A stretch of DNA of 64,000 nt from Flavobacteriales bacterium. Its GTDB lineage: Bacteria > Bacteroidota > Bacteroidia > Flavobacteriales_D > Sanyastnellaceae. This document shows, piece by piece, positions 15,121 to 53,603 of this stretch (position 1 is the stretch's first letter; each line of letters opens with the position of its first letter). The position numbers and the translations under genes are program-made. The stretch lies in contig JADFAK010000022.1 of assembly GCA_015665315.1 (NCBI GenBank), positions 1-64,000 of the forward strand, given 5' to 3'. The notes beneath the pieces were generated by a model. The model saw only the letters and a program-made list of their open reading frames with translations, was not told the origin of the DNA and did not search any database.

Positions 15121-15970
15121 CACCTTTGTACCTAAAAATTTCATTTGTGCCGACTTTTCATTGAATCCACTTGACCCATGGCGAGACTTGCTGATTGCTG
15201 AATTGGGCGAACTGGGCTTTGAGAGTTTTGAGGAGCATACGCGTGGTGTAAAGGGATATATCGACGAGGGAAAATTTGTTCAAGGTAGTCTTGATCATGT
15301 CTTGGACATGGCGGGATCTATGGTGACGAAGTCCTATAAGACGAGCATTGTCCAAAGCGAGAATTGGAACAAGAACTGGGAGAAGCAATTCAATCCACTT
15401 GCGGTAGATGGCTTGTGCTATGTTCGCGCACCCTTTCACGAAAAGGATGATAATTTCGACTTAGAATTGATTATTCACCCTCAAATGTCTTTCGGCACAG
15501 GTCATCATGCAACGACCTATTTGATGATTCGGCAGCTCTTTGCACTCGACCTTGAAGGTAAGTCTGTCCTAGACATGGGCAGTGGCACTGGTATTCTTGC
15601 CATCCTCGCTGAGATTAGGGGAGCGAAGAACATTGATGCAATTGACATCGACGAATGGAGTTTCATGAATATGCCGCAAAATTTTGAGTTGAATGGCTGC
15701 AAGTTGATCAAGCACTATCAAGGTGGAAAGGAATTGTTGACAGATCAAGAGTACGATGTGATCATCGCCAATATCAACAGGAACATCCTTTTAGATCAGA
15801 TTCAAGACTATGCCCGAGTATTGGTGAACAATGGACATTTGTTGCTCAGTGGGTTTTACGAAGCCGACATTCCCAAATTGTTAGAGGCCGCCCAAAACGT
15901 GAGCTTTGAGCTGATCAATACCGATCAAAAAGACAAATGGGTTATGCTTCATCTGCAGTTGAGGAATTAG
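15113..15970 (+). CDS. prmA: 50S ribosomal protein L11 methyltransferase
   Basis: 'IHPQMSFGTGHHATTYLMIRQL...GKSVLDMGSGTGILAILAEIRGAKNIDAIDIDEW...VIIANINRNIL'; start overlaps tpiA stop. Confidence 0.95.
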   Translation: MDNTFVPKNFICADFSLNPLDPWRDLLIAELGELGFESFEEHTRGVKGYIDEGKFVQGSLDHVLDMAGSMVTKSYKTSIVQSENWNKNWEKQFNPLAVDGLCYVRAPFHEKDDNFDLELIIHPQMSFGTGHHATTYLMIRQLFALDLEGKSVLDMGSGTGILAILAEIRGAKNIDAIDIDEWSFMNMPQNFELNGCKLIKHYQGGKELLTDQEYDVIIANINRNILLDQIQDYARVLVNNGHLLLSGFYEADIPKLLEAAQNVSFELINTDQKDKWVMLHLQLRN

Positions 15971-17645
15971 ACCTCTGAATGAAGTCCAACGCTTGGTATT
16001 CATCTTCGTAAATATTGTCCAGTCCTATATGCTTCCAGAAAGACCCACGGAGCAAATAGGCTCGTGTTCTTCGTTTTAATCCGCTCACATAAAGCCCGCC
16101 ACCTTGTTTTCTCAACTGGTCGGCCAAATGCACTAGCATCTCTGCGCCAGCCATATCAACTAGGTTTATGCTATTTCCGACAATGAGTAGGGTATTGTGA
16201 CCAGCAACCAATTTGTCCAGTTTGTTCTTAATGTGGTTCACCGATCCAAAGAAAATCGAACCGTCGATCCGCACCATTACAACTCCAGGAACTTTCTTGG
16301 TTCTTTTCTTCCGAAGAGAACTTACAATCAGCTTCTTGCCATCTTTTTCATGAATCCCTAGAGGCACAACTCGAGGTGTGGAAGTTCGCTGCAAGTAAAA
16401 TATGAGAGAAAATATTACGCCAATATAGATCGCGAATTCAAGTCGTAAGAACAAGGTTGAGAGAAATGTGATTAGCAAGACAGCCGTTTCTTGTCCTGAG
16501 ACCTTGAGTATTTCTTTGATGTGCTTGACGTCGATCAGGTTGTAGGAAACGTAAAAAATGATTCCAGCCATTGTTGCAATGGGAAGGAATGCCGTCAATG
16601 GAGCTACAAAAAGAACAATCAACACAAGGAGCAAAGCAGCAAAGATAGCTGCCAAAGGGCTTTGAGCGCCTGCTTCATAGTTAACCCCTGATCGCGTGAA
16701 GCTTCCCGACCCAGCAAAACTGCTAAAGAAACTTCCAATCATGTTTGAGAGTCCTTGCCCAATGAACTCTTGATTGCCGTCAATACGTTGTCCAGATTGC
16801 ATGGCGATTGAGCGAGCGATGGCGACAGCTTCGATTAAGCCCAATAAGGCAATCGCAAAAGCATCCGGAGCAATTTTAGTAATGAGGTCCAAACTCAAAT
16901 TCGGCATGCCAAAAGGAGGGAGGTTGGCTGGCATTTCGCCGACGAGTGCAATTCCAGCTTCTTCACCACCTAGGAAGTAGGCCAGTAAACTACCGACTAA
17001 CATGGCGATAAGCATGAAAGGTAATTTAGGAGCTAACTTTCTTCCAACAAAGGCCACGATAAAAGTCACAGTGGCGATCAGTGCAACATAAAAATTGATT
17101 TCAGATGCTTTGCGGGCTACTGCCGAGAATATCTCGTAGATCTTAAGTCCGTTAGGGAGATCTACACCCAAGGCATACGGTAGTTGTTTAACAGCAATGA
17201 GGATCGCCGCACCAGCCGTAAATCCTATCACCACGGTATGGGAAATAAAATTGACCAAGGTTCCCAATCGGGCTATACCCATCGCAAGTTGGATGAGGCC
17301 GGCCACAAAGGTGATCACGAGCACCATTGCTATAAAGTCGGGGGTTCCTGGCAAAAGTCCATGTGAGGTAACAGCCGAAAAGACAACAATAGAAATAGCA
17401 GTTGCCGGCCCAGTAATCATGTGTTTCGAGCTGCCGAAAAGCGCCGCGACGACGGGCATGATCATCGCCGAATACAAGCCGTAAATCGGCGGCATACCAG
17501 CAATTATCGCAAAGGCCATTCCCTGTGGTAAAACCACAATAGCGCCCGTAAGTCCGGCAATGAGGTCTTTCTTAAGACTTCTTTTATTGGTCTTCGGAAG
17601 CCATTCTAAGAATGGTAAAAATCGATGCAATACTTTCTTCTCCAC
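15942..17645 (-). CDS. SulP (SLC26) family inorganic anion transporter with STAS domain
   Basis: 'LTGAIVVLPQGMAFAIIAGMPPIYGLYSAMIMPVVAALFGSSKHMITGPATAIS', C-terminal STAS. 3' end overlaps convergent prmA by 29 bp. Confidence 0.95.
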   Translation of the reverse strand: MEKKVLHRFLPFLEWLPKTNKRSLKKDLIAGLTGAIVVLPQGMAFAIIAGMPPIYGLYSAMIMPVVAALFGSSKHMITGPATAISIVVFSAVTSHGLLPGTPDFIAMVLVITFVAGLIQLAMGIARLGTLVNFISHTVVIGFTAGAAILIAVKQLPYALGVDLPNGLKIYEIFSAVARKASEINFYVALIATVTFIVAFVGRKLAPKLPFMLIAMLVGSLLAYFLGGEEAGIALVGEMPANLPPFGMPNLSLDLITKIAPDAFAIALLGLIEAVAIARSIAMQSGQRIDGNQEFIGQGLSNMIGSFFSSFAGSGSFTRSGVNYEAGAQSPLAAIFAALLLVLIVLFVAPLTAFLPIATMAGIIFYVSYNLIDVKHIKEILKVSGQETAVLLITFLSTLFLRLEFAIYIGVIFSLIFYLQRTSTPRVVPLGIHEKDGKKLIVSSLRKKRTKKVPGVVMVRIDGSIFFGSVNHIKNKLDKLVAGHNTLLIVGNSINLVDMAGAEMLVHLADQLRKQGGGLYVSGLKRRTRAYLLRGSFWKHIGLDNIYEDEYQALDFIQRSNSSTADEA

Positions 17646-17707: not shown

Positions 17708-20566
17708 CTATTTCTTTTCGTCGACGTAATAAGTGCTAGCGTCAGGACGAAGCGCTCGGGCAAACCACAATGGTCTTCTTAGTCCGTCTGGACCAGGAGC
17801 CGGGCGAGTCAGTTTAAGCCAATTCCTGTACACTTCCATGGACTTTTCGGTATCGACCGAAACATCACCGTAATTATCCTCTGGGCGTGCTTTCTCGAGT
17901 CGGACTTTTTGATGCCAACAGTGCATTCCACTGATCGGGTCAGGGTGAACGGGGAAAGTGATGTTTTGGTGTACACCTCCATCCGACCAAAATATTCTCG
18001 ACGAATCAGCATCGGCGCTTTTGAACGGACGAATACCTTCAAGCGTACTCATTTTCCAAGTCGTTCCTTTCTGGTCAATGTTTACCGTGTTAGTTCCCCA
18101 TCGATTTCCTTGGTCTTGTGCTCTTCGCCATCGACCGAGGTGGTGCGAACAGGCTACTACTCCGGGTTTCATCCCTTCGGTAACCCATACTTTATCGACA
18201 AAGTAGCCAATTTCTGTATTGATTCGGATCATGTCCCCATCGCGAATGCCAAGAGTCGCCGCATCGGAAGTGTGCATCCAAACTGGGTTGCGATTGGCAA
18301 TCTCTGTTAACCATTTTGAATTGGCTGATCGAGAGTGAATAAGTACTGGCAAGCGAAAGGTCGGGACCAAAGGGAAATCTCCTTTAGACCGATCCATTTC
18401 TTCTTCATGAATATGTGACTTTATATACTTTGGAATGGCAAACTCAGGCCACTTCCAATCTACCATGGTCTGCGAATAAAACTCTTGCTTTCGAGATGGA
18501 GTAGGGAATCCTACTACATTTTCTCCGCTTACCTCAACGCCAATGGGTGCATCGGAATTCGTAATTAAGCCAGTTTTAGGATCTGTCTGACTGTTCGAAA
18601 GCTGATCCGCGGGTACTTTTTTCAAATGTTTGTTATACGAATGCTCTTCTACTTCGAATGCTCCATACTTCTTCATGTAGTCCAAAGCCGACAAGCCTTC
18701 CTTCTCAGCGGTTTCCTTGAGATTGGGTACGCGCTCAAAAATGAACTGGTAATACTCATCAATATTAATCTTTTCTCCTTCTCTGTACGGCGACATAAAA
18801 TGCTTTCTAACGCCAAGAGAACCGTCAGGATCCATTCGCCAGCTCAATTCGATCCAGAACTCATCTTCTTCCCATACCTCACCAGGATTGACCTCGTAAG
18901 TAAATGTAAACGGCACCTTATCTCGACGAGCAGCTTCGCGCAAAACGGGTTGTCGAAACGCTACCCAAGTTCCACCATGCGTCGCGTACGAATTGATATC
19001 ATGTCTTTCAGATGCCAATCCCATTGGCAAAACGTAGTCGGCGAAAAAGGCTGTTTCGTTCCAAGTAGGGGTCAGCGCGATGTGCATACCCACTTTTTCG
19101 GCATCCTGTAGTACCTCCATCCAAGAGAATCCATCGGGATATGTCCACACTGGATTAAAGACACGTGTAAAATAGACGTCCATCTTTCCTCGATTTTCCT
19201 TTAAGAAATGGGGGAGAAGAAAGCTCATTTCAAAGAATGCCAATGGGTACTCTTTCGGGAAATGCAGTTCATTCCAAAACTTTTGTGCCGGAGGATTGTC
19301 AAAGAAGGTAGGTTTAAACTTATTCCAAGCATTTGGAGAAGTCCCACCAACTGTGCCCACACTTCCCGTAAGTACATTGAGAAAGTGCAAACAACGGGCT
19401 ACTGCCCATCCTCCCAGATTGCCGCTACCTGCACTTCTCCAATTGTGAGAAGCGAATTTTTCTCCAGCTTCACCTATGCCTCGAGCGATTTCGACGATCA
19501 TATTCTCGTCAACACCACATTCTTTTGCAGCAAATGCAGGAGTATATTCGGCATATTCTTCTTGCATTTTAACGATGAAGTTCTCGAAAGAAACTTCGGT
19601 CGACGGATGCATCTTTTCAAGGTATTCTTCCCAATTGACCCATGACTCCATGAATTTTCTGTTGTACAGACCTTCATCCAAGATTACTTTGGCCATGGCC
19701 AAGAGTACGGCAGCTTCCGTTCCCGGATAGGTAGGCATCCAGTAATTCGCCATGGACGCCGTGTTGGACAAACGCGGGTCCATGCAAGCCATTTTTGCTC
19801 CTTTCATCATGCCCTCAATGATGCGCTGAGCATGCGGGTTGAAGTAATGACCTGACTCGAGATGCGCGCTAATTAGCAATATGAATTTGGCATTGGAATG
19901 GTCAGGTGATGGACGGTCATAGCCGTGCCAAATATTGTATCCAAAACGAGCTCCAGAGGAACAGATATTCGTGTGGCTATTGTGACCATCAACTCCCCAC
20001 GCTTTCAATACGCGGTCCATATAACCTTCATGGCCCGGTCGGCCCACGTGATAGGCGATTTCATTATGTCTTTCTTCCTGAATTGCTTTTCTCAGTCGGC
20101 CAGAAATATCATCCAATGCCTCGTCCCACGACACGCGCTTCCATTTTCCGCTACCACGTTCACCATCTCTTTTGAGCGGATAGAGAATACGATCGGGATC
20201 AGTCAGTTGGTTGATAGTCGCTGGGCCTTTGGCGCAATTTCGTCCTCGGCTCCCCGGGTGGTAGGGGTTTCCTTCAAATTTGCGGACTTCATTGGTCTTT
20301 TTATCGATGTAGGCAACCATGCCGCAGGCCGACTCGCAATTGAAGCAGGTGGTTGGCACGATTCGGTAGTTCTTCTTTTCACGTTTGGCCCAACCTTTTG
20401 CCTCGTATTCAGTCCAGTTGTCCCATTGCTCTGGGGGTGGAAATTTAGTCAGGTCGGTACCTTCCATCAATCGAGGGATATCGGTCTTGGGCGGCGTTAA
20501 ATCAGGAATCAATTTCAGCTTTGCCGCAATTTTTTCTATTACTGTTGTTTCGGGGTTCTTTGACAT
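17708..20566 (-). CDS. Molybdopterin oxidoreductase catalytic subunit, SoeA-like (putative cytoplasmic sulfite dehydrogenase)
   Basis: 'TTCFNCESACGMVAYIDKKTNEVRKFEGNPYHPGSRGRNCAKGPATINQLTDPDRILYPLKR' CISM family; no Tat signal; adjacent to FeS-NrfD subunit. The SoeA assignment is by context and overall resemblance. Confidence 0.75.
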   Translation of the reverse strand: MSKNPETTVIEKIAAKLKLIPDLTPPKTDIPRLMEGTDLTKFPPPEQWDNWTEYEAKGWAKREKKNYRIVPTTCFNCESACGMVAYIDKKTNEVRKFEGNPYHPGSRGRNCAKGPATINQLTDPDRILYPLKRDGERGSGKWKRVSWDEALDDISGRLRKAIQEERHNEIAYHVGRPGHEGYMDRVLKAWGVDGHNSHTNICSSGARFGYNIWHGYDRPSPDHSNAKFILLISAHLESGHYFNPHAQRIIEGMMKGAKMACMDPRLSNTASMANYWMPTYPGTEAAVLLAMAKVILDEGLYNRKFMESWVNWEEYLEKMHPSTEVSFENFIVKMQEEYAEYTPAFAAKECGVDENMIVEIARGIGEAGEKFASHNWRSAGSGNLGGWAVARCLHFLNVLTGSVGTVGGTSPNAWNKFKPTFFDNPPAQKFWNELHFPKEYPLAFFEMSFLLPHFLKENRGKMDVYFTRVFNPVWTYPDGFSWMEVLQDAEKVGMHIALTPTWNETAFFADYVLPMGLASERHDINSYATHGGTWVAFRQPVLREAARRDKVPFTFTYEVNPGEVWEEDEFWIELSWRMDPDGSLGVRKHFMSPYREGEKINIDEYYQFIFERVPNLKETAEKEGLSALDYMKKYGAFEVEEHSYNKHLKKVPADQLSNSQTDPKTGLITNSDAPIGVEVSGENVVGFPTPSRKQEFYSQTMVDWKWPEFAIPKYIKSHIHEEEMDRSKGDFPLVPTFRLPVLIHSRSANSKWLTEIANRNPVWMHTSDAATLGIRDGDMIRINTEIGYFVDKVWVTEGMKPGVVACSHHLGRWRRAQDQGNRWGTNTVNIDQKGTTWKMSTLEGIRPFKSADADSSRIFWSDGGVHQNITFPVHPDPISGMHCWHQKVRLEKARPEDNYGDVSVDTEKSMEVYRNWLKLTRPAPGPDGLRRPLWFARALRPDASTYYVDEKK

Positions 20567-20577
20567 GATTGCAACAA

Positions 20578-22215
20578 TTAAGATAAAGGAATACGCTGAG
20601 GGGCTTCAACCCAAATGTGCTCGGTGATATAGACGCCAATGATCATAAGTACACCAGCTATTGTAATTGGTATGGGTGAACCGATAATCAACAAGGTCAA
20701 GGGGATAACCGCACCAAGAAGCACAGTTCCTATCCAAAACCGTTTGGCATAACGTCCTGATAGAATCGATTTCAGGGCTCGATGCGTGTGTTCGGTTGGG
20801 TGAACGGTGAGGATTTCAAAAATCAATACGATAAGGTTAATTACAATAGCACCCCCCAAAATCATCTGCAAGGAGAATGACCATTGAGGTAAGCGACCTA
20901 AGAAATAGGTAATTAAGATAAGTGCACCACCACCGGCCATGAAACTGTGTACAAGCATGTGGATAGCGAGAGTAGGGCTTTGCCAAAAATCTCTTCCTTT
21001 AGCTTGCGCAAATAGAAATGCGGTATAAATGGCAACTACAATCGCAAGTGCTGCTGACCCCCAAAAGCCTACAATCGCCAACGATTCAATTTTCAATATG
21101 AATCCAGCAATCATCAGTGAAAGGAGCGCTCCAAATAGTGTGAGTGCGTAGCCACCTTTCACAAGCCAGCTTTTCCAGTGCGGACGAAGCAATACGTAGA
21201 TAAACCTTCCAGGTTGATCCAAGTCCTTGACCAAAAACACGGTGGTGAGTATTAGGAATAGCATGGAGAGGCTAGATACCCATAGCATTCCTTCGCCATC
21301 AAGAATACTTCCGCCTAATAAGAAACTTAGTGCAGGTACGAGAATGAGCCCTGCCGAAATGGCCTTGGTCCACACATAAGCAGAAACTTCCCAACCCCAC
21401 AAAATTCCTTTGTCCGGCGTGTCATATACTCTTCTGGTCTTGTCCTTGTTCAGCAGAAGTTCAATTGATTTGGGTGCTTGAGCTTCTTCACCTTTAAAAC
21501 TTACGGTTTTGGAATCAACTTCAAATTGACCGCTTTGTCGCTTCGCTATATCCAATAAATCCTTTCCTAAGGTCAATTCTTCAGCAAATTTGCTAAAATG
21601 TCCAACGCCGGTGCTCTGCGAACTCCAAATGTAAGATTCAGACTTGTGCGTGGCTGTTGGATTCAACGACGCTTCGTCTCCATTTATGTAGAAAAGATTT
21701 GGCTTTGTTCCTTTTTCAGCTCTGCGCACGGTTACCTGCTCTCTAGACAACAGTTGTGCAATTTCTGTGTCTGGATTATCCATGTCGCCAGAAATAATCG
21801 CGTGCTCAGGACAGACGTTGACACAAGCAGGTTCAAGACCAACATCCACTCGATGAGCGCAATAATTACATTTGGCAGCTGTTTGTGTCTCAGGATCTAT
21901 GTACAAGGCGTCGTATGGACAGGCCTGCATACACGACTTGCATCCGATACATCTTCGATTATCAAAGTCGACGATGCCATCTTCGCGAATGAAAAGGGCT
22001 GTGGTAGGGCATATGTCCACACAAGGTGCATCCGTGCAGTGATTGCATCGCATCACGCTAAAAAGTCTCCTTGTATTTGGGTATTCTCCCTTTTCTGTTT
22101 GCTTGACAAATGTTCGGTTGACACCAACGGGTACGTCATGTTCCGACTTACAAGCGACCGTACATGCGTGACAACCTATGCACTTTCGGTTGTCGATGAT
22201 AAATCCATATTGCAT
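20578..22215 (-). CDS. Fused 4x[4Fe-4S] ferredoxin (SoeB/DmsB-like) and NrfD/DmsC-like membrane anchor
   Basis: N-term 'CIGCHACTVAC', 'CNHCTDAPCVDIC', 'CIGCKSCMQAC', 'CNYCAHRVDVGLEPACVNVC'; C-term multi-TM NrfD-like. Confidence 0.85.
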   Translation of the reverse strand: MQYGFIIDNRKCIGCHACTVACKSEHDVPVGVNRTFVKQTEKGEYPNTRRLFSVMRCNHCTDAPCVDICPTTALFIREDGIVDFDNRRCIGCKSCMQACPYDALYIDPETQTAAKCNYCAHRVDVGLEPACVNVCPEHAIISGDMDNPDTEIAQLLSREQVTVRRAEKGTKPNLFYINGDEASLNPTATHKSESYIWSSQSTGVGHFSKFAEELTLGKDLLDIAKRQSGQFEVDSKTVSFKGEEAQAPKSIELLLNKDKTRRVYDTPDKGILWGWEVSAYVWTKAISAGLILVPALSFLLGGSILDGEGMLWVSSLSMLFLILTTVFLVKDLDQPGRFIYVLLRPHWKSWLVKGGYALTLFGALLSLMIAGFILKIESLAIVGFWGSAALAIVVAIYTAFLFAQAKGRDFWQSPTLAIHMLVHSFMAGGGALILITYFLGRLPQWSFSLQMILGGAIVINLIVLIFEILTVHPTEHTHRALKSILSGRYAKRFWIGTVLLGAVIPLTLLIIGSPIPITIAGVLMIIGVYITEHIWVEAPQRIPLS

Positions 22216-22301
22216 CTAGCTGTATTTTGGAAATTAGCAGGCGTTAGGATCCGTAAAAAGTTTGGATTCTAATTGCACAAGTAACAAGAATACAATAAAT
22301 C

Positions 22302-22325
22302 ACAATGTGACAAAGCACACATTGT
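22302..22325. promoter_or_regulatory. 24-bp interrupted dyad (8-8-8) between the soeBC-like and moaD genes
   Basis: ACAATGTG-ACAAAGCA-CACATTGT, perfect arms, divergent intergenic region. Confidence 0.6.
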
Positions 22326-22425
22326 CGTGGAATATGGGCTTGTTTATAACTAGTTGTAAGTAGATAATAAATATGAGTGCTTCAGGATGTTTCCTACCTT
22401 CGTCCCATTAACGAAACAGCAATTA

Positions 22426-22662
22426 ATGGAGATATTGACATTTGGAATAGCCTTTGAAATAATTGGAAAGAGAAGATTCCAATTCAATGCTGACGAGTCT
22501 TTGAGTTGCGCCCAATTGAAAGATCAATTGATCAAAAAGTATCCAGAACTTGGCTCCCTTTCTTCTGTCAAGTTAGCCGTGAACGGTGAATATGTTGAAG
22601 ATGACTTTCTCATTCTACCTGACCACGAAGTCGCGATTATCCCACCGGTCAGCGGAGGGTGA
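22426..22662 (+). CDS. moaD: MoaD/ThiS family sulfur carrier protein
   Basis: Beta-grasp protein ending in 'HEVAIIPPVSGG' (C-terminal GG). Start at Met14 of the ORF, downstream of a TACCTTCG promoter-like element. Confidence 0.88.
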   Translation: MEILTFGIAFEIIGKRRFQFNADESLSCAQLKDQLIKKYPELGSLSSVKLAVNGEYVEDDFLILPDHEVAIIPPVSGG

Positions 22663-22692
22663 ATTTTTCGTTTGTTTGAAAGTGGGGCAATA

Positions 22693-22717
22693 AATAAGGG
22701 CCCATCGGACCCTTATT
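22693..22717. terminator. Hairpin between convergent moaD and cstB-like genes (probable bidirectional terminator)
   Basis: AATAAGGG-CCCATCGGA-CCCTTATT. Confidence 0.6.
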
Positions 22718-22753
22718 CGGTTTATAATTCACACGTATAGTTCAAACCCCATT

Positions 22754-24163
22754 TTAGAGCATGGTGTTTTGTTCAGAATACTCGCTTATTTTGATGTTCG
22801 TTTTCTTGAGCTCATTGAATCCGCCTTTGACGTTGACAACTTGAGCAATTCCATGCTTTTTCAGAATTGAACTTGCTATTACCGACCGATATCCTCCTGC
22901 ACAATGAATAAAGTACTTAGTGTCATTGGCCAATTTGTCCAGATTGGTATTTATGAAGTCCAAAGGAAAGTTTCGCACTCCGACGATGTGTTCGGCATTG
23001 AACTCACTTTCTTTGCGAACGTCTAGGGTAGTAGTGTCATCTGGACTGAAAATGTTCGCAAAATCAGCAGCCTCAATTTCTTCTAAAGTATCAAGAGCAA
23101 AGCCTGCTTTTTTCCAAGCTTCGATGCCGCCCTCCAGAAAGCCGATTGTATTGTCGTATCCAACTCGGGATAGTCTCTTAACAACCTCATCTTCACGTCC
23201 TTTTTCAGCCACAAATAGAATAGGAGTGCCTAAGTCCTCTATCAATGCACCTACCCATGGGGCAAAATTATCATCGATGCCAATTGACAATGATCCCGGG
23301 ATAAAACCGAGAGGGAATTCGCTGACATGGCGGGTGTCAAGAACGAGGGTCCGATCATTTTCAGCCATCTTCTTGAAATCACTTGGTTGCAAACCTTCCA
23401 TCCCTTTTTCGAGAATGAAATCTAGACTGCCATAGCCCTTTTTATTCATGGTGGCATTCTTCGGGAAATATTGAGGTGGGGCTACCAAACCGGTGGTTAC
23501 TTCTTTGATGAATTCTTCCCTCGTCATATCGGCACGGAGAGCGTAGTTGACCTTTAATTGGTTGCCCAAAGTATCCCACGTTTCCTTGCTCATGTTTTTT
23601 CCACAAGCCGATCCCGCACCATGGTTTGGATAAACGATAGTCTCTGGGGGAAGAGGCATGATCTTGTTTCGAAGTGAATCGAATAGGAATGAGGCAAGGT
23701 CTTCTCGTGTAACATTAGACGAAACTGCCAAGTCGGGTCGACCAACATCTCCGATGAAGAGAGCGTCTCCCGTAAAGATACAATGTGTCTTACCCGATTC
23801 ATCAAACAGGAGGATGGAAATAGACTCCATGGTATGCCCTGGGGTGTGAAGTACTTTCAACTTGATGTCACCTAGTTGGAACACTTCCTCATCTTTTGCA
23901 ATGTGGGCGTCGAATTCAGGTTTTGCTGTAGGACCAAAAACGATTTTAGCGCCAGTCTTTTTCGCTAGGTCCAAATGACCAGAAACGAAGTCGGCATGGA
24001 AATGAGTCTCAAAAACAAATTTGATTTTTCCTCCGATTTCTTCGGCCATCTTAATGTAGGGTGCAGGATCTCTTAGAGGATCAATAATTGCAATTTCTCC
24101 ATTGGATTCAATGAAATATGCGGCTTCTGCCAGGCATCCGGTATACAGTTGTTCGATTTTCAT
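22754..24163 (-). CDS. CstB-like persulfide dioxygenase (MBL fold) - pseudo-rhodanese - rhodanese
   Basis: 'FETHFHADFVSGHLDLAKKTGAKIVFGP', 'HTPGHTMESISILL', 'FTGDALFIGDVGRPDLA'; first rhodanese-like domain lacks catalytic Cys ('ILFVAEKGRED'), second has it ('YFIHCAGGYRS'). Confidence 0.88.
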   Translation of the reverse strand: MKIEQLYTGCLAEAAYFIESNGEIAIIDPLRDPAPYIKMAEEIGGKIKFVFETHFHADFVSGHLDLAKKTGAKIVFGPTAKPEFDAHIAKDEEVFQLGDIKLKVLHTPGHTMESISILLFDESGKTHCIFTGDALFIGDVGRPDLAVSSNVTREDLASFLFDSLRNKIMPLPPETIVYPNHGAGSACGKNMSKETWDTLGNQLKVNYALRADMTREEFIKEVTTGLVAPPQYFPKNATMNKKGYGSLDFILEKGMEGLQPSDFKKMAENDRTLVLDTRHVSEFPLGFIPGSLSIGIDDNFAPWVGALIEDLGTPILFVAEKGREDEVVKRLSRVGYDNTIGFLEGGIEAWKKAGFALDTLEEIEAADFANIFSPDDTTTLDVRKESEFNAEHIVGVRNFPLDFINTNLDKLANDTKYFIHCAGGYRSVIASSILKKHGIAQVVNVKGGFNELKKTNIKISEYSEQNTML

Positions 24164-24186
24164 TTTGCTATGTTTATTAGTCGGTT

Positions 24187-24194
24187 CAAATGTA
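24187..24194 (-). promoter_or_regulatory. -7 promoter element of the cstB-like gene
   Basis: Minus-strand TACATTTG, exact match to TAnnTTTG, ~24 bp upstream of the ATG. Confidence 0.55.
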
Positions 24195-24211
24195 TCTCAG
24201 AACTGGATTGT

Positions 24212-24235
24212 GTTATGTAGCTAGAGTTACATAAC
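24212..24235. promoter_or_regulatory. 24-bp interrupted dyad (8-8-8) upstream of the cstB-like gene
   Basis: GTTATGTA-GCTAGAGT-TACATAAC; same geometry and ATGTR..YACAT core as 22302-22325. Confidence 0.6.
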
Positions 24236-24236
24236 C

Positions 24237-24254
24237 AACTGATAATCATCAGTT
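24237..24254. promoter_or_regulatory. Crp/Fnr-like palindrome upstream of the cstB-like gene
   Basis: AACTGAT-AATC-ATCAGTT, perfect 7-bp arms; TGAT-N4-ATCA core. Confidence 0.6.
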
Positions 24255-24392: not shown

Positions 24393-24806
24393 TTAATGCG
24401 GAAGTCTTTTCTTAAGAACACCGTAAACTAATGTGCCTAACAAGGCCCCGAGAATGGACATGATTACCATTGTGTAGCCGTAACCCACTAGAATATATAG
24501 TGGCCCCGGACAAGCGCCGGTCATAGCCCAACCAAGTCCAAATATGGCGCCACCAAAGAGGTAGCGTTTCCAGCCTTTTCGGTATTCAATGAGATCGTAG
24601 GGTTGGCCTTCGGTTGTCTTCCAGCCAGTCCTTTTGGCTATTGCGAGGAAAATGACACCTAAGATAACAGCTGAGCCGATGACCCCATACATGTGAAATG
24701 ATTCAAATCGGAACATTTCGTAAATGCGAAACCAACTTATTATTTCTCCTTTTGTGAGGGTGATTCCGAAGACTATGCCTAAAACTAATACGATGAGGTT
24801 TTTCAT
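24393..24806 (-). CDS. YeeE/YedE-related half-transporter (DUF6691-like)
   Basis: 'GGAIFGLGWAMTGACPGPLYILVGYG' conserved YeeE/YedE Cys motif; paired with next gene. Confidence 0.83.
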   Translation of the reverse strand: MKNLIVLVLGIVFGITLTKGEIISWFRIYEMFRFESFHMYGVIGSAVILGVIFLAIAKRTGWKTTEGQPYDLIEYRKGWKRYLFGGAIFGLGWAMTGACPGPLYILVGYGYTMVIMSILGALLGTLVYGVLKKRLPH

Positions 24807-24815
24807 AACGTCGGG

Positions 24816-25376
24816 TTATAAGGTTAGAATATGAGGAAGGATCAACCATGTCATGATGAGTCCACCAATGAAGAAACCAATGACTGCTATGAGACTGGGA
24901 AGTTGAAGATTTGACAGTCCGCTGATGGCATGCCCTGAGGTGCATCCGTTGGCCCATCTTACGCCAAAACCAACAAAGAATCCGCCGAGCAAGAAGATGA
25001 TTATGCCTTTCAAGGTGAACAGACTGCCCCATGTGAAAAAGTCGGGGGCTAGATCCATTCCTGGATTCTCCATTCCCAAAGACTCAAGATTCTTTATGGT
25101 GTTATCTGAAATCGAAACGATCGTGTCTGACATCAAGTAGTTCGAAGCAATGTATCCACCTATCATGGAACCAATGATGAAGACAAAGAGCCATGACTTA
25201 CTCTTCCAGTCAATTTTGAAATAGTCAGACCATTTTGAAGCTCCAGCCATAGAACACATCACTTGTAAACTTGAAGAAATCCCAAATCGTCGGCCTACTA
25301 TTAGAAGTAAGGCCATTACGATGGTAATTAATGGTCCGGCGACGTACCAGGGCCAGGGTGAAAGGATATATTCCAT
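24816..25376 (-). CDS. YeeE/YedE family half-transporter (thiosulfate/sulfur-compound type)
   Basis: 'GGFFVGFGVRWANGCTSGHAISGLSNLQLPSLIAVIGFFIGG'; start at Met10 of the ORF. Confidence 0.85.
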   Translation of the reverse strand: MEYILSPWPWYVAGPLITIVMALLLIVGRRFGISSSLQVMCSMAGASKWSDYFKIDWKSKSWLFVFIIGSMIGGYIASNYLMSDTIVSISDNTIKNLESLGMENPGMDLAPDFFTWGSLFTLKGIIIFLLGGFFVGFGVRWANGCTSGHAISGLSNLQLPSLIAVIGFFIGGLIMTWLILPHILTL

Positions 25377-25434
25377 TTTGACTTCGTTTAAGTAGTTATT
25401 CATTAACCAGCAATCAATGGATCGCTAGTTTCAA

Positions 25435-45706: not shown

Positions 45707-45754
45707 CTGTGGTCAATTGTGAGATCAAAGTTAAATTCAAGGGTAAGAAACAGG

Positions 45755-45784
45755 AGTGACCATACTCACTGGAGCATGGTCACT
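45755..45784 (-). terminator. Hairpin between ccoP and ccoG (attenuator, processing stem or weak terminator)
   Basis: AGTGACCATACTC-ACTG-GAGCATGGTCACT, one non-Watson-Crick position; weak T-run. Confidence 0.5.
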
Positions 45785-51016: not shown

Positions 51017-53149
51017 ATGAGAGCGAATTTTCAGAATATAGATTGGAAGTTGGGGAGTGAAGTAAAATCAACTCCAAGTGAGGTAACAGAATTTGCCACG
51101 GCCGAAGGGATAGAGATTAAATCGGTATACACGGAAAGTGACTCCAAGGACTTGCCGCATGTGGGTTTTGGTGCTGGCTTTGCGCCGTATTTGCGCGGGC
51201 CTTACGGTTCGATGTATACCATTCGTCCGTGGACTGTTCGCCAGTACGCTGGATTCAGCACGGCCGAAGAGTCAAACGCGTTTTATCGACGGAATCTAGC
51301 GGCCGGACAGAAAGGGCTGAGTGTGGCTTTTGATCTTGCCACACACCGTGGTTATGATAGTGATCACCCAAGGGTGGAAGGCGATGTTGGCAAAGCAGGA
51401 GTGGCGATTGATTCGGTTTTGGATATGAAACTGCTTTTTGATCAGATTCCGCTCGACAAGATGTCGGTATCCATGACCATGAACGGCGCCGTGGTTCCGA
51501 TCTTGGCGTTTTATATCGTTGCAGCTGAAGAACAGGGCGTTTCTTGTGATAAGCTGACAGGAACTATCCAGAATGACATTCTCAAGGAATTTATGGTGCG
51601 GAATACCTATATCTATCCGCCAGCTCCTTCGATGCGCATCATTGCAGACATCTTTAAATATACGTCTGACAACATGCCGAAATTCAACAGCATCAGCATC
51701 TCGGGTTACCACATGCACGAAGCTGGAGCACCGGCCGATATTGAGTTGGCTTATACGTTACTCGACGGATTGGAGTACGTGCGCACAGGTGTGAAATCGG
51801 GCATGGATATCGATGCATTTGCGCCAAGATTGTCCTTTTTCTGGGCGATCGGCATGAATCACTTTATGGAAATCGCCAAGATGCGCGCGGCGCGGATGAT
51901 TTGGGCCAAACTCATCAAAGAATTCAATCCGAAAAACAACAAGTCATTGGCTCTAAGAACCCATTGCCAAACTTCAGGCTGGAGCTTAACGGAGCAGGAT
52001 CCTTTTAACAATGTGGCTCGAACTTGTGTAGAAGCATTGGCAGCCGCTATGGGTGGGACTCAGAGTCTGCACACCAATGCGCTGGACGAGGCCATTGCTT
52101 TACCAACAGACTTCTCGGCTCGCATTGCTCGAAACACACAGATCTATCTGCAAAAGGAAACCGATGTATGCAAGAGTGTAGATCCGTGGGGAGGTTCTCA
52201 TTATGTAGAAAGCCTAACGAATGACCTGATGGCCAAGGCTTGGGAGCACATCCAAGAAATCGAAAAGATGGGCGGTATGGCCAAGGCGATAGAGTCGGGA
52301 GTCCCCAAGCTTCGAATTGAAGAGGCTGCGGCAAGAAAACAAGCTCGAATCGACTCAGGAAAGGACATTATTGTAGGTATAAACGCCTATACTACAGACG
52401 ATGAACAGGATTTGGATATCCTAGAGGTGGACAATACAGCTGTTCGATTGGGGCAAATTGAAAGGCTCAAGACCTTGCGCAGCGAACGAGATGAATCGGC
52501 CTGTCAAAAGGCTTTAGAGGCGCTTACGGCTGGAGCAAAGGGGAATGACAATATTCTCGAATTGGCGGTAGTCGCGGCTAGAGAGAGAGCCAGTTTAGGT
52601 GAGATTTCATCGGCTTTGGAAAGCGTTTTCGGACGATACAAGGCACAAATCAACAGTGTTTCAGGAGTATATTCATCAGAATCAATGGATGATCAAGATT
52701 TTATCAATGCACGTGCGAAAGCCGACCAATTTGCCAAACAAAGCGGTCGACGACCACGAATTATGGTAGTGAAAATGGGCCAAGATGGGCATGACCGTGG
52801 GGCGAAGGTTATCGCCACTAGTTTTGCCGACATAGGTTTTGATGTGGATATCGGTCCGCTTTTCCAAACCCCCGAAGAAGCAGCGCGCCAGGCCATCGAG
52901 AATGACGTTCACATCGTAGGTGTGTCATCATTGGCAGCAGGACACAAAACCTTGGTCCCTCAGATTATCGATCAATTGAGAAAGCAGGGTAGGGAAGACA
53001 TCCTGGTTGTGGCCGGTGGAGTGATTCCAAAACAGGATTATTCATTCTTAGAAGAAGCTGGAGTAGCGGGGGTATATGGACCGGGTACCAAGATAGCTTT
53101 GGCGGCTCAAGAATTGCTCGATATTTTGATTGAAGCGTGGACCGATTAG
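51017..53149 (+). CDS. mutB: Methylmalonyl-CoA mutase large (alpha) subunit
   Basis: '[57 protein letters not shown]'; B12-binding '[36 protein letters not shown]'. Start at Met21 of the ORF. Confidence 0.97.
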
Positions 53150-53523
53150 AGCTCAGATTTGAACTCTTCAAACGTGCCGTCAGTATAAAAAATCAACACT
53201 TTAGAGGCTACCTTTTTGGTAGCCTTTTTTGTGGGAATTGATTGTTCAGGAACAGTCGGACTATCCGTGTCATTTTCGACCAAAGGCAACTCGTTTGTTA
53301 CATTTGTAACAGGAGCGATCATCGGGTCTTTCCCGTGCAAGAGCCATGCATTGTTGATCTGCGGAAAATGCGTGGAAAGCTTGATAATGAAGTCTAGACT
53401 GGGCTTGTTGCGTCCGTTGAGTATATGGCTCAGGGCCGAGCGTTGGATGCCCATTTGCTCGGCAAACTCTTTGGGAGTGATCTCCAGGTGATCAAGTACT
53501 TGTTGGATTCTTTCTTGGAACAT
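53146..53523 (-). CDS. XRE-type helix-turn-helix regulator
   Basis: '[64 protein letters not shown]'. Stop overlaps mutB stop (convergent). Confidence 0.92.
53205..53230 (+). terminator. Rho-independent terminator for mutB located inside the antisense XRE coding region
   Basis: AGGCTACC-TTTTT-GGTAGCCT-TTTTT on the + strand. Confidence 0.75.
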
Positions 53524-53585: not shown

Positions 53586-53603
53586 ATGTTACATGTGTAA
53601 CAT
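53586..53603. promoter_or_regulatory. 18-bp palindrome upstream of the XRE regulator gene
   Basis: ATGTTACA-TG-TGTAACAT. Confidence 0.55.

Follow-up and report, generated by a model that had tools for sequence, protein, structure and literature searches.

Two palindromes that precede the sulfur genes of a 64-kb stretch of Flavobacteriales DNA (the whole stretch analyzed, 64,000 nucleotides, hereafter the window) are probably operators through which a Crp/Fnr-type activator, L021, would control a regulon for sulfide, persulfide, and sulfite oxidation. As judged by comparative genomics, activators of the L021 type probably drive the genes for sulfide-to-sulfate oxidation across much of Bacteroidota. 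The evidence comes from a refined motif, its spacing to the promoter, gene context and linkage, conservation, and the target genes found in the genome under study (G000).

Results

Sulfur genes and dyads of the window

The cst gene (22754..24163, minus strand) encodes a metallo-beta-lactamase domain (PF00753) and two PF00581 rhodanese stretches, which is the domain makeup of a CstB-type protein, and its role as a persulfide dioxygenase-rhodanese is predicted. The same strand carries two YeeE/YedE halves (24393..24806, Sulf_transp/DUF6691, and 24816..25403, Sulf_transp), a soeBC-like gene for a fused 4Fe-4S ferredoxin and NrfD membrane subunit (20578..22215; PF13247, PF03916), a soeA-like gene for a molybdopterin oxidoreductase (17708..20566; PF00384, PF01568, PF04879) and, next after soeA, a gene for a SulP sulfate permease with a STAS domain (15942..17645). 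A MoaD/ThiS-like protein is encoded divergently from soeBC (22387..22662, plus strand), a layout shared with Lutibacter and others. No curated NCBIfam model scored above its cut-off for the soe proteins, and their assignment as a SoeABC sulfite dehydrogenase is putative; linkage to cst, sulP, and yeeE supports a sulfur role for these genes, and sulP precedes or follows soe in many relatives.

The initial annotation had described two dyads in front of the two sulfur transcription units, their 8-bp arms perfect and separated by 8 nt, and both were recovered exactly so: ACAATGTG-ACAAAGCA-CACATTGT at 22302-22325 and GTTATGTA-GCTAGAGT-TACATAAC at 24212-24235. Their shared core, ATGTR-N8-YACAT, matches the window at these two places alone (0.3 expected; 3 of 100 shuffles reach two matches), and the window holds four perfect 8-8-8 dyads versus ∼1.1 expected. 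Such counts, by themselves, are only modestly above chance. Across the 4.6-Mb genome, the core gave 15 matches versus 14 for its reversed control. As written, therefore, the pattern carries no genomic signal, and the 8-8-8 geometry with its ATGTR core had to be given up as the motif. The dyads themselves are real, because each stands ahead of a sulfur transcription unit and both are conserved. Although the core occurs at the genomic background rate, chance palindromes are a very unlikely explanation: an independent PWM ranks the cst site first in the window, this site has a -7 box at 29 nt, and both dyads are kept in the same-genus sister species G028.

Elsewhere in the window, near-identical 16-bp palindromes (TGTTACATNTGTAACA) occur at 53296-53311 and 53587-53602, one upstream of and one inside an XRE-type HTH gene (125 aa, 53146-53523, minus strand). 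This pair (0.17 expected; none of 100 shuffles reach it) probably represents autoregulatory operators of the HTH gene.

A refined motif and its promoter geometry

A collection scan for soeBC provided 80 soe loci with flanks from other Bacteroidota. Most of the distant cst orthologues in the family showed no dyad of strict TGT geometry in the first 400 bp upstream, and it was the soe loci that yielded the motif. Within its own family, soeBC is confined to the same genus; of 395 genomes of the class, 10 contain it at E <= 1e-60. A de novo dyad scan that used no prior motif, run upstream of soeBC, cst, yeeE1, sulP, and the crp gene, returned GTAAC-N4-GTTAC as the top dyad (43 of 184 upstream regions versus 0.33 expected from shuffles). 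Either TGTRAY-N4-RTYACA or GTAAC-N4-GTTAC was present upstream of 56 of 212 sulfur genes, as compared to 1 of 229 control genes taken from the same contigs (Fisher 7e-19). The sole control site lies before a DUF983-like gene, which recurs beside the regulator. Near the Crp/Fnr gene, this DUF983-like gene (CPRC motif) repeatedly bears the motif (loci L126, L171, L241, and L246) and may be an overlooked part of the sulfur regulon.

The arrangement TGTR-N8-YACA, or TGT-N10-ACA, has the spacing of Crp/Fnr operators (TGTGA-N6-TCACA). In 26 of the 59 sites, TAnnTTTG begins 28 to 29 nt downstream of the motif centre; it is found elsewhere twice (at 30 nt; one also at 13 nt), its background density being 0.0025 per position. 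When dyads were sought by symmetry and distance to the -7 box alone, nearly all were of the TGTAAC or TGTGAT types. A second set of loci was picked by the regulator and not by soe; there, too, TauE/SafE-like, cst, or sulP genes follow a site that has its box at 29 nt. The TAnnTTTG -7 box of Flavobacterium psychrophilum lies at -12 to -5, and the SM5 motif reads TAnnTTGY (PMC9723704). With the box at that position and the motif centre 28 to 29 nt before it, the centre would fall at about -41.5, the position of a class II activator. The true motif is TGTRAY-N4-RTYACA, mainly TGTAAC-N4-GTTACA, at a predicted position of about -41.5. Flavobacterial yeeE1 upstream regions (L121, L123, L126, and L146) contain a TATATTTA box and two tandem sites whose centres are ∼17 bp from each other.

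Overlap with the -7 box would be commoner for a repressor site. The constant placement at a predicted -41.5 upstream of the box, the TGT-N10-ACA geometry, and the recurrent linkage of a Crp/Fnr gene to the targets all argue against a sulfur repressor of the ArsR, CsoR, or MarR type, such as BigR/SqrR or CstR, as the protein that the dyads serve. In other phyla, these families do regulate genes for persulfide dioxygenase or sulfur oxidation (for example, PMC10451225 and PMC10318464), but for the dyads described here we consider such a repressor very unlikely. An activator of the Crp/Fnr family is the reading that we favor.

The cst and soe promoter sites

The cst dyad (24212..24235, minus strand) is a predicted Crp/Fnr-type operator with the core TGTAAC-TCTA-GCTACA at 24216-24231. 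Going downstream from its centre, it is 60 bp to the cst ATG and 29 nt to TACATTTG (24187..24194, minus strand), a perfect Bacteroidota sigma-A -7 box (TAnnTTTG); this spacing corresponds to about -41.5. The site matches the composite of site and TAnnTTTG with zero mismatches, and its PWM score of 16.8 is the best in the window, the next being 8.5. In G028, the left half-site and AGCTACA are retained and GATAnATTTG of the promoter is conserved. A second perfect dyad, AACTGAT-GATT-ATCAGTT (7-4-7; 24237..24254, minus strand), resembles an FNR box (TGAT-N4-ATCA) and is centred 22 bp upstream of the first, at about -63.5. Its CTGATGATTATCA is identical in G028 and forms the longest conserved block of the cst promoter; it is possibly a site for another Crp/Fnr protein or a tandem site.

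The soe dyad (22302..22325, minus strand; TGTGTG-CTTT-GTCACA) lies between the divergent moaD and soeBC genes, 110-87 bp ahead of the soeBC ATG, and is probably a weaker operator of this kind. AATGTGT and TTGTCACATTG are kept in G028 at the same gene distance, the surrounding region having otherwise diverged. No canonical TAnnTTTG is present 28 to 29 nt from the dyad; a degenerate -7-like box, TTACTTGT (22277..22284, minus strand), is tentatively assigned 29 nt from the centre with one mismatch to TAnnTTGY. The proposal that the same site stands before both units thus holds strongly for cst and more weakly for soe, whose PWM score of 4.4 ranks 13th in the window.

These differences could indicate that, of the two dyads, only that of cst is part of the regulon and that the soe dyad serves a different regulator with a similar TGTGAC-type half-site, for instance the Crp/Fnr paralogue L020. 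The gap in PWM score, the missing TAnnTTTG, and the difference between the arms (ATGTG versus ATGTA) fit this possibility, which we nevertheless hold to be less likely. G028 keeps the soe site, which scores 12.6 there, and has no counterpart of L020, and Lutibacter-type divergent moaD/soeBC regions contain TGTGAT-N4-RTYACA 28 nt from TAnnTTTG. In addition, L021 has the RExxxR helix of CRP, and CRP with this recognition helix reads TGTGA. Membership of the soe dyad in the same Crp/Fnr regulon is, on these sequence features, probable.

The regulon in the genome under study

The genome was searched by pattern scans, and the PWM was used to order the composite matches. The perfect GTAACN4GTTAC occurs five times in G000 versus 25 times for the reversed control, and TGTRAY-N4-RTYACA with at most one mismatch occurs 108 times genome-wide versus 124, so that neither is enriched. 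Three of the five perfect sites precede cst2, the usp-yeeE operon, and sulP, and the other two lie within coding sequence. Enrichment of the G000 sites thus lies in their context alone and not in motif counts.

The composite (site, 22 nt, and TAnnTTTG, at most one mismatch) was found at 16 places versus 7 for the reversed control; the genome-wide comparison in which the ATGTR core showed nothing came out in favor of the refined motif with its -7 box. Ordered by PWM, the top composites precede sulP (20.5), cst2 (19.2), cst (16.8), usp-yeeE (16.1), a TetR gene (13.2), a rhodanese gene (10.4), and an SQR gene (9.3), so six of the seven highest precede sulfur genes. A DUF2892-type gene follows lower in the ranking (7.0), and the scan also matches non-sulfur genes (TetR, serC, and phytase). 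The names SQR, DUF2892, TauE/SafE, and DUF983, outside the window, come from sequence inspection and not from a family search. The cst, cst2, and soe sites are all kept in G028.

Several further matches were noted. At G000:C9:66464 and 67613 (L291 and L285), an SQR-like gene and its sterol-desaturase-like neighbour each have a composite before them, and the motif also precedes an SQR-like gene in L136 and L146. In the window, a one-mismatch composite at 45726-45769 (site GTGAGTATGGTCAC, box TAACTTTG at 29 nt) has a weak PWM score of 1.4 and lies 20 nt upstream of a CcoG-like gene on the minus strand.

The candidate regulator

The initial annotation had thought it possible that a dedicated regulator of the sulfur genes is encoded elsewhere, and this idea is supported by a Crp/Fnr gene at G000:C19:50522-51187, an orthologue of genes within soe/yeeE/cst clusters elsewhere. 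It encodes L021 (222 aa). G000 has six cNMP-binding proteins over the Pfam cut-off. In many of the soe loci, L021-type Crp/Fnr genes adjoin yeeE, soeBC, soeA, sulP, or cst, and an L021 homologue lies within 6 kb of cst in 21 of 55 family genomes outside its own genus. The L021 gene of G000 does not itself adjoin sulfur genes. For many L021-like genes of the class, no sulfur gene lies nearer than ∼1.5 kb, so some of them may serve different functions.

G000 has one more close Crp/Fnr homologue, L020 (G000:C164), and a composite match at C164:2174-2217 sits directly downstream of its gene, beside the DUF2892-type gene. This location makes L020 a conceivable acting regulator in place of L021, but an unlikely one. 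Every cluster-linked Crp/Fnr protein of the L021 type is closer to L021 (30-49%) than to L020, and the tree places L021 in a clade of 0.97 support with cst- or soe-linked members, L020 falling outside. G028 retains the sites and an L021 orthologue at 84%, but yields no match to L020, which also lacks the second conserved cysteine described below.

L021 is a member of the Crp/Fnr superfamily with a cNMP-binding-like beta-barrel and a Crp-type HTH: PF00027 scored 27.9 bits (cut-off 27.5), PF13545 52.9 (27), and PF00325 31.6 (21), and the best Foldseek matches to its AlphaFold model (pLDDT 90.7) are all Crp/Fnr. The operator layout of the superfamily, TGT-N10-ACA with class I/II placement, is present in the linked gene clusters, and binding is predicted. 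Assignment as CRP proper was rejected (NF008732, 58.7 bits versus a cut-off of 266), as was assignment as an Fe-S FNR (NF008365, 24.8 bits versus 228; no N-terminal cysteine cluster). The recognition helix of L021 reads RExxxR.

In CRP, Arg82, Thr127, and Ser128 contact cAMP. In the alignment, Arg82 is replaced by Lys in most members and the Thr127 and Ser128 positions are hydrophobic. Among 23 members, Cys84 is invariant and Cys90 is conserved in at least 90%. Both cysteines fall within the part of the protein that holds the cAMP phosphate in CRP. Because the Thr127/Ser128 positions are hydrophobic and Cys84 lies in the phosphate-cassette region, cAMP is an unlikely effector. A reasonable guess is that L021 is a thiol-based, cAMP-independent sulfur sensor that would act through its paired cysteines.

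Discussion

From the sequence evidence, we infer that L021 is the regulator in this species and that it binds the dyads and activates rather than represses. In the mechanism that we propose, an L021 dimer would bind TGTRAY-N4-RTYACA centred at about -41.5, in the place of the -33 element, and would recruit sigma-A RNA polymerase at the TAnnTTTG -7 box by class II activation. Its targets would include SQR, two persulfide dioxygenase-rhodaneses, a rhodanese, the YeeE and SulP transporters, and probably SoeABC. The signal would probably be sulfane sulfur, sensed through Cys84 and Cys90 of what was once the cyclic-nucleotide pocket.

To our knowledge, the regulators of sulfide and persulfide oxidation known so far are mostly of the ArsR, CsoR, MarR, or sigma-54 types. 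In the open-access literature searched, we found no description of a Crp/Fnr regulator of sulfur oxidation in Bacteroidota, and an L021-type regulator does not seem to have been described. We suggest, tentatively, that L021 may exemplify a so far undescribed Crp/Fnr activator, present throughout Bacteroidota, that would turn on the oxidation of sulfide and persulfide, with sulfane-sulfur sensing by a cysteine pair and a TGTAAC-N4-GTTACA class II regulon of its own. Bacteroidota are major marine and sediment heterotrophs. The analysis supplies a regulator gene, an operator, a promoter geometry, and a target list that are testable in culturable strains, for example of Lutibacter, and the motif with its -7 box has enough specificity to help annotate the regulon from sequence.

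Among known systems, L021 resembles Escherichia coli CRP in its class II mode in fold, HTH family, TGT-N10-ACA geometry, the helix residues equivalent to R180 and R185, and the predicted centre at -41.5. It differs in its half-site, which is mostly TGTAAC and not the TGTGA of CRP, in the hydrophobic Thr127/Ser128 positions, in Cys84 of the phosphate-cassette region, and in the Bacteroidota TAnnTTTG promoter. FNR and DNR belong to the same superfamily, and the cst site has an FNR-like TGAT-N4-ATCA 22 bp ahead of it; L021, however, scores far below the FNR model cut-off and its main motif is TGTAAC-N4-GTTACA. Among solved structures, searches by sequence and by fold gave as the best match 3dv8, a Crp/Fnr regulator of Eubacterium rectale with no known sulfur-related function. 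CstR (CsoR family), BigR/SqrR/SoxR (ArsR family), and FisR have comparable targets, namely persulfide dioxygenase, rhodanese, SQR, and sulfur transporters, but they belong to other protein families and are mostly repressors, whereas L021 is a Crp/Fnr protein whose predicted operators occupy the class II activator position.
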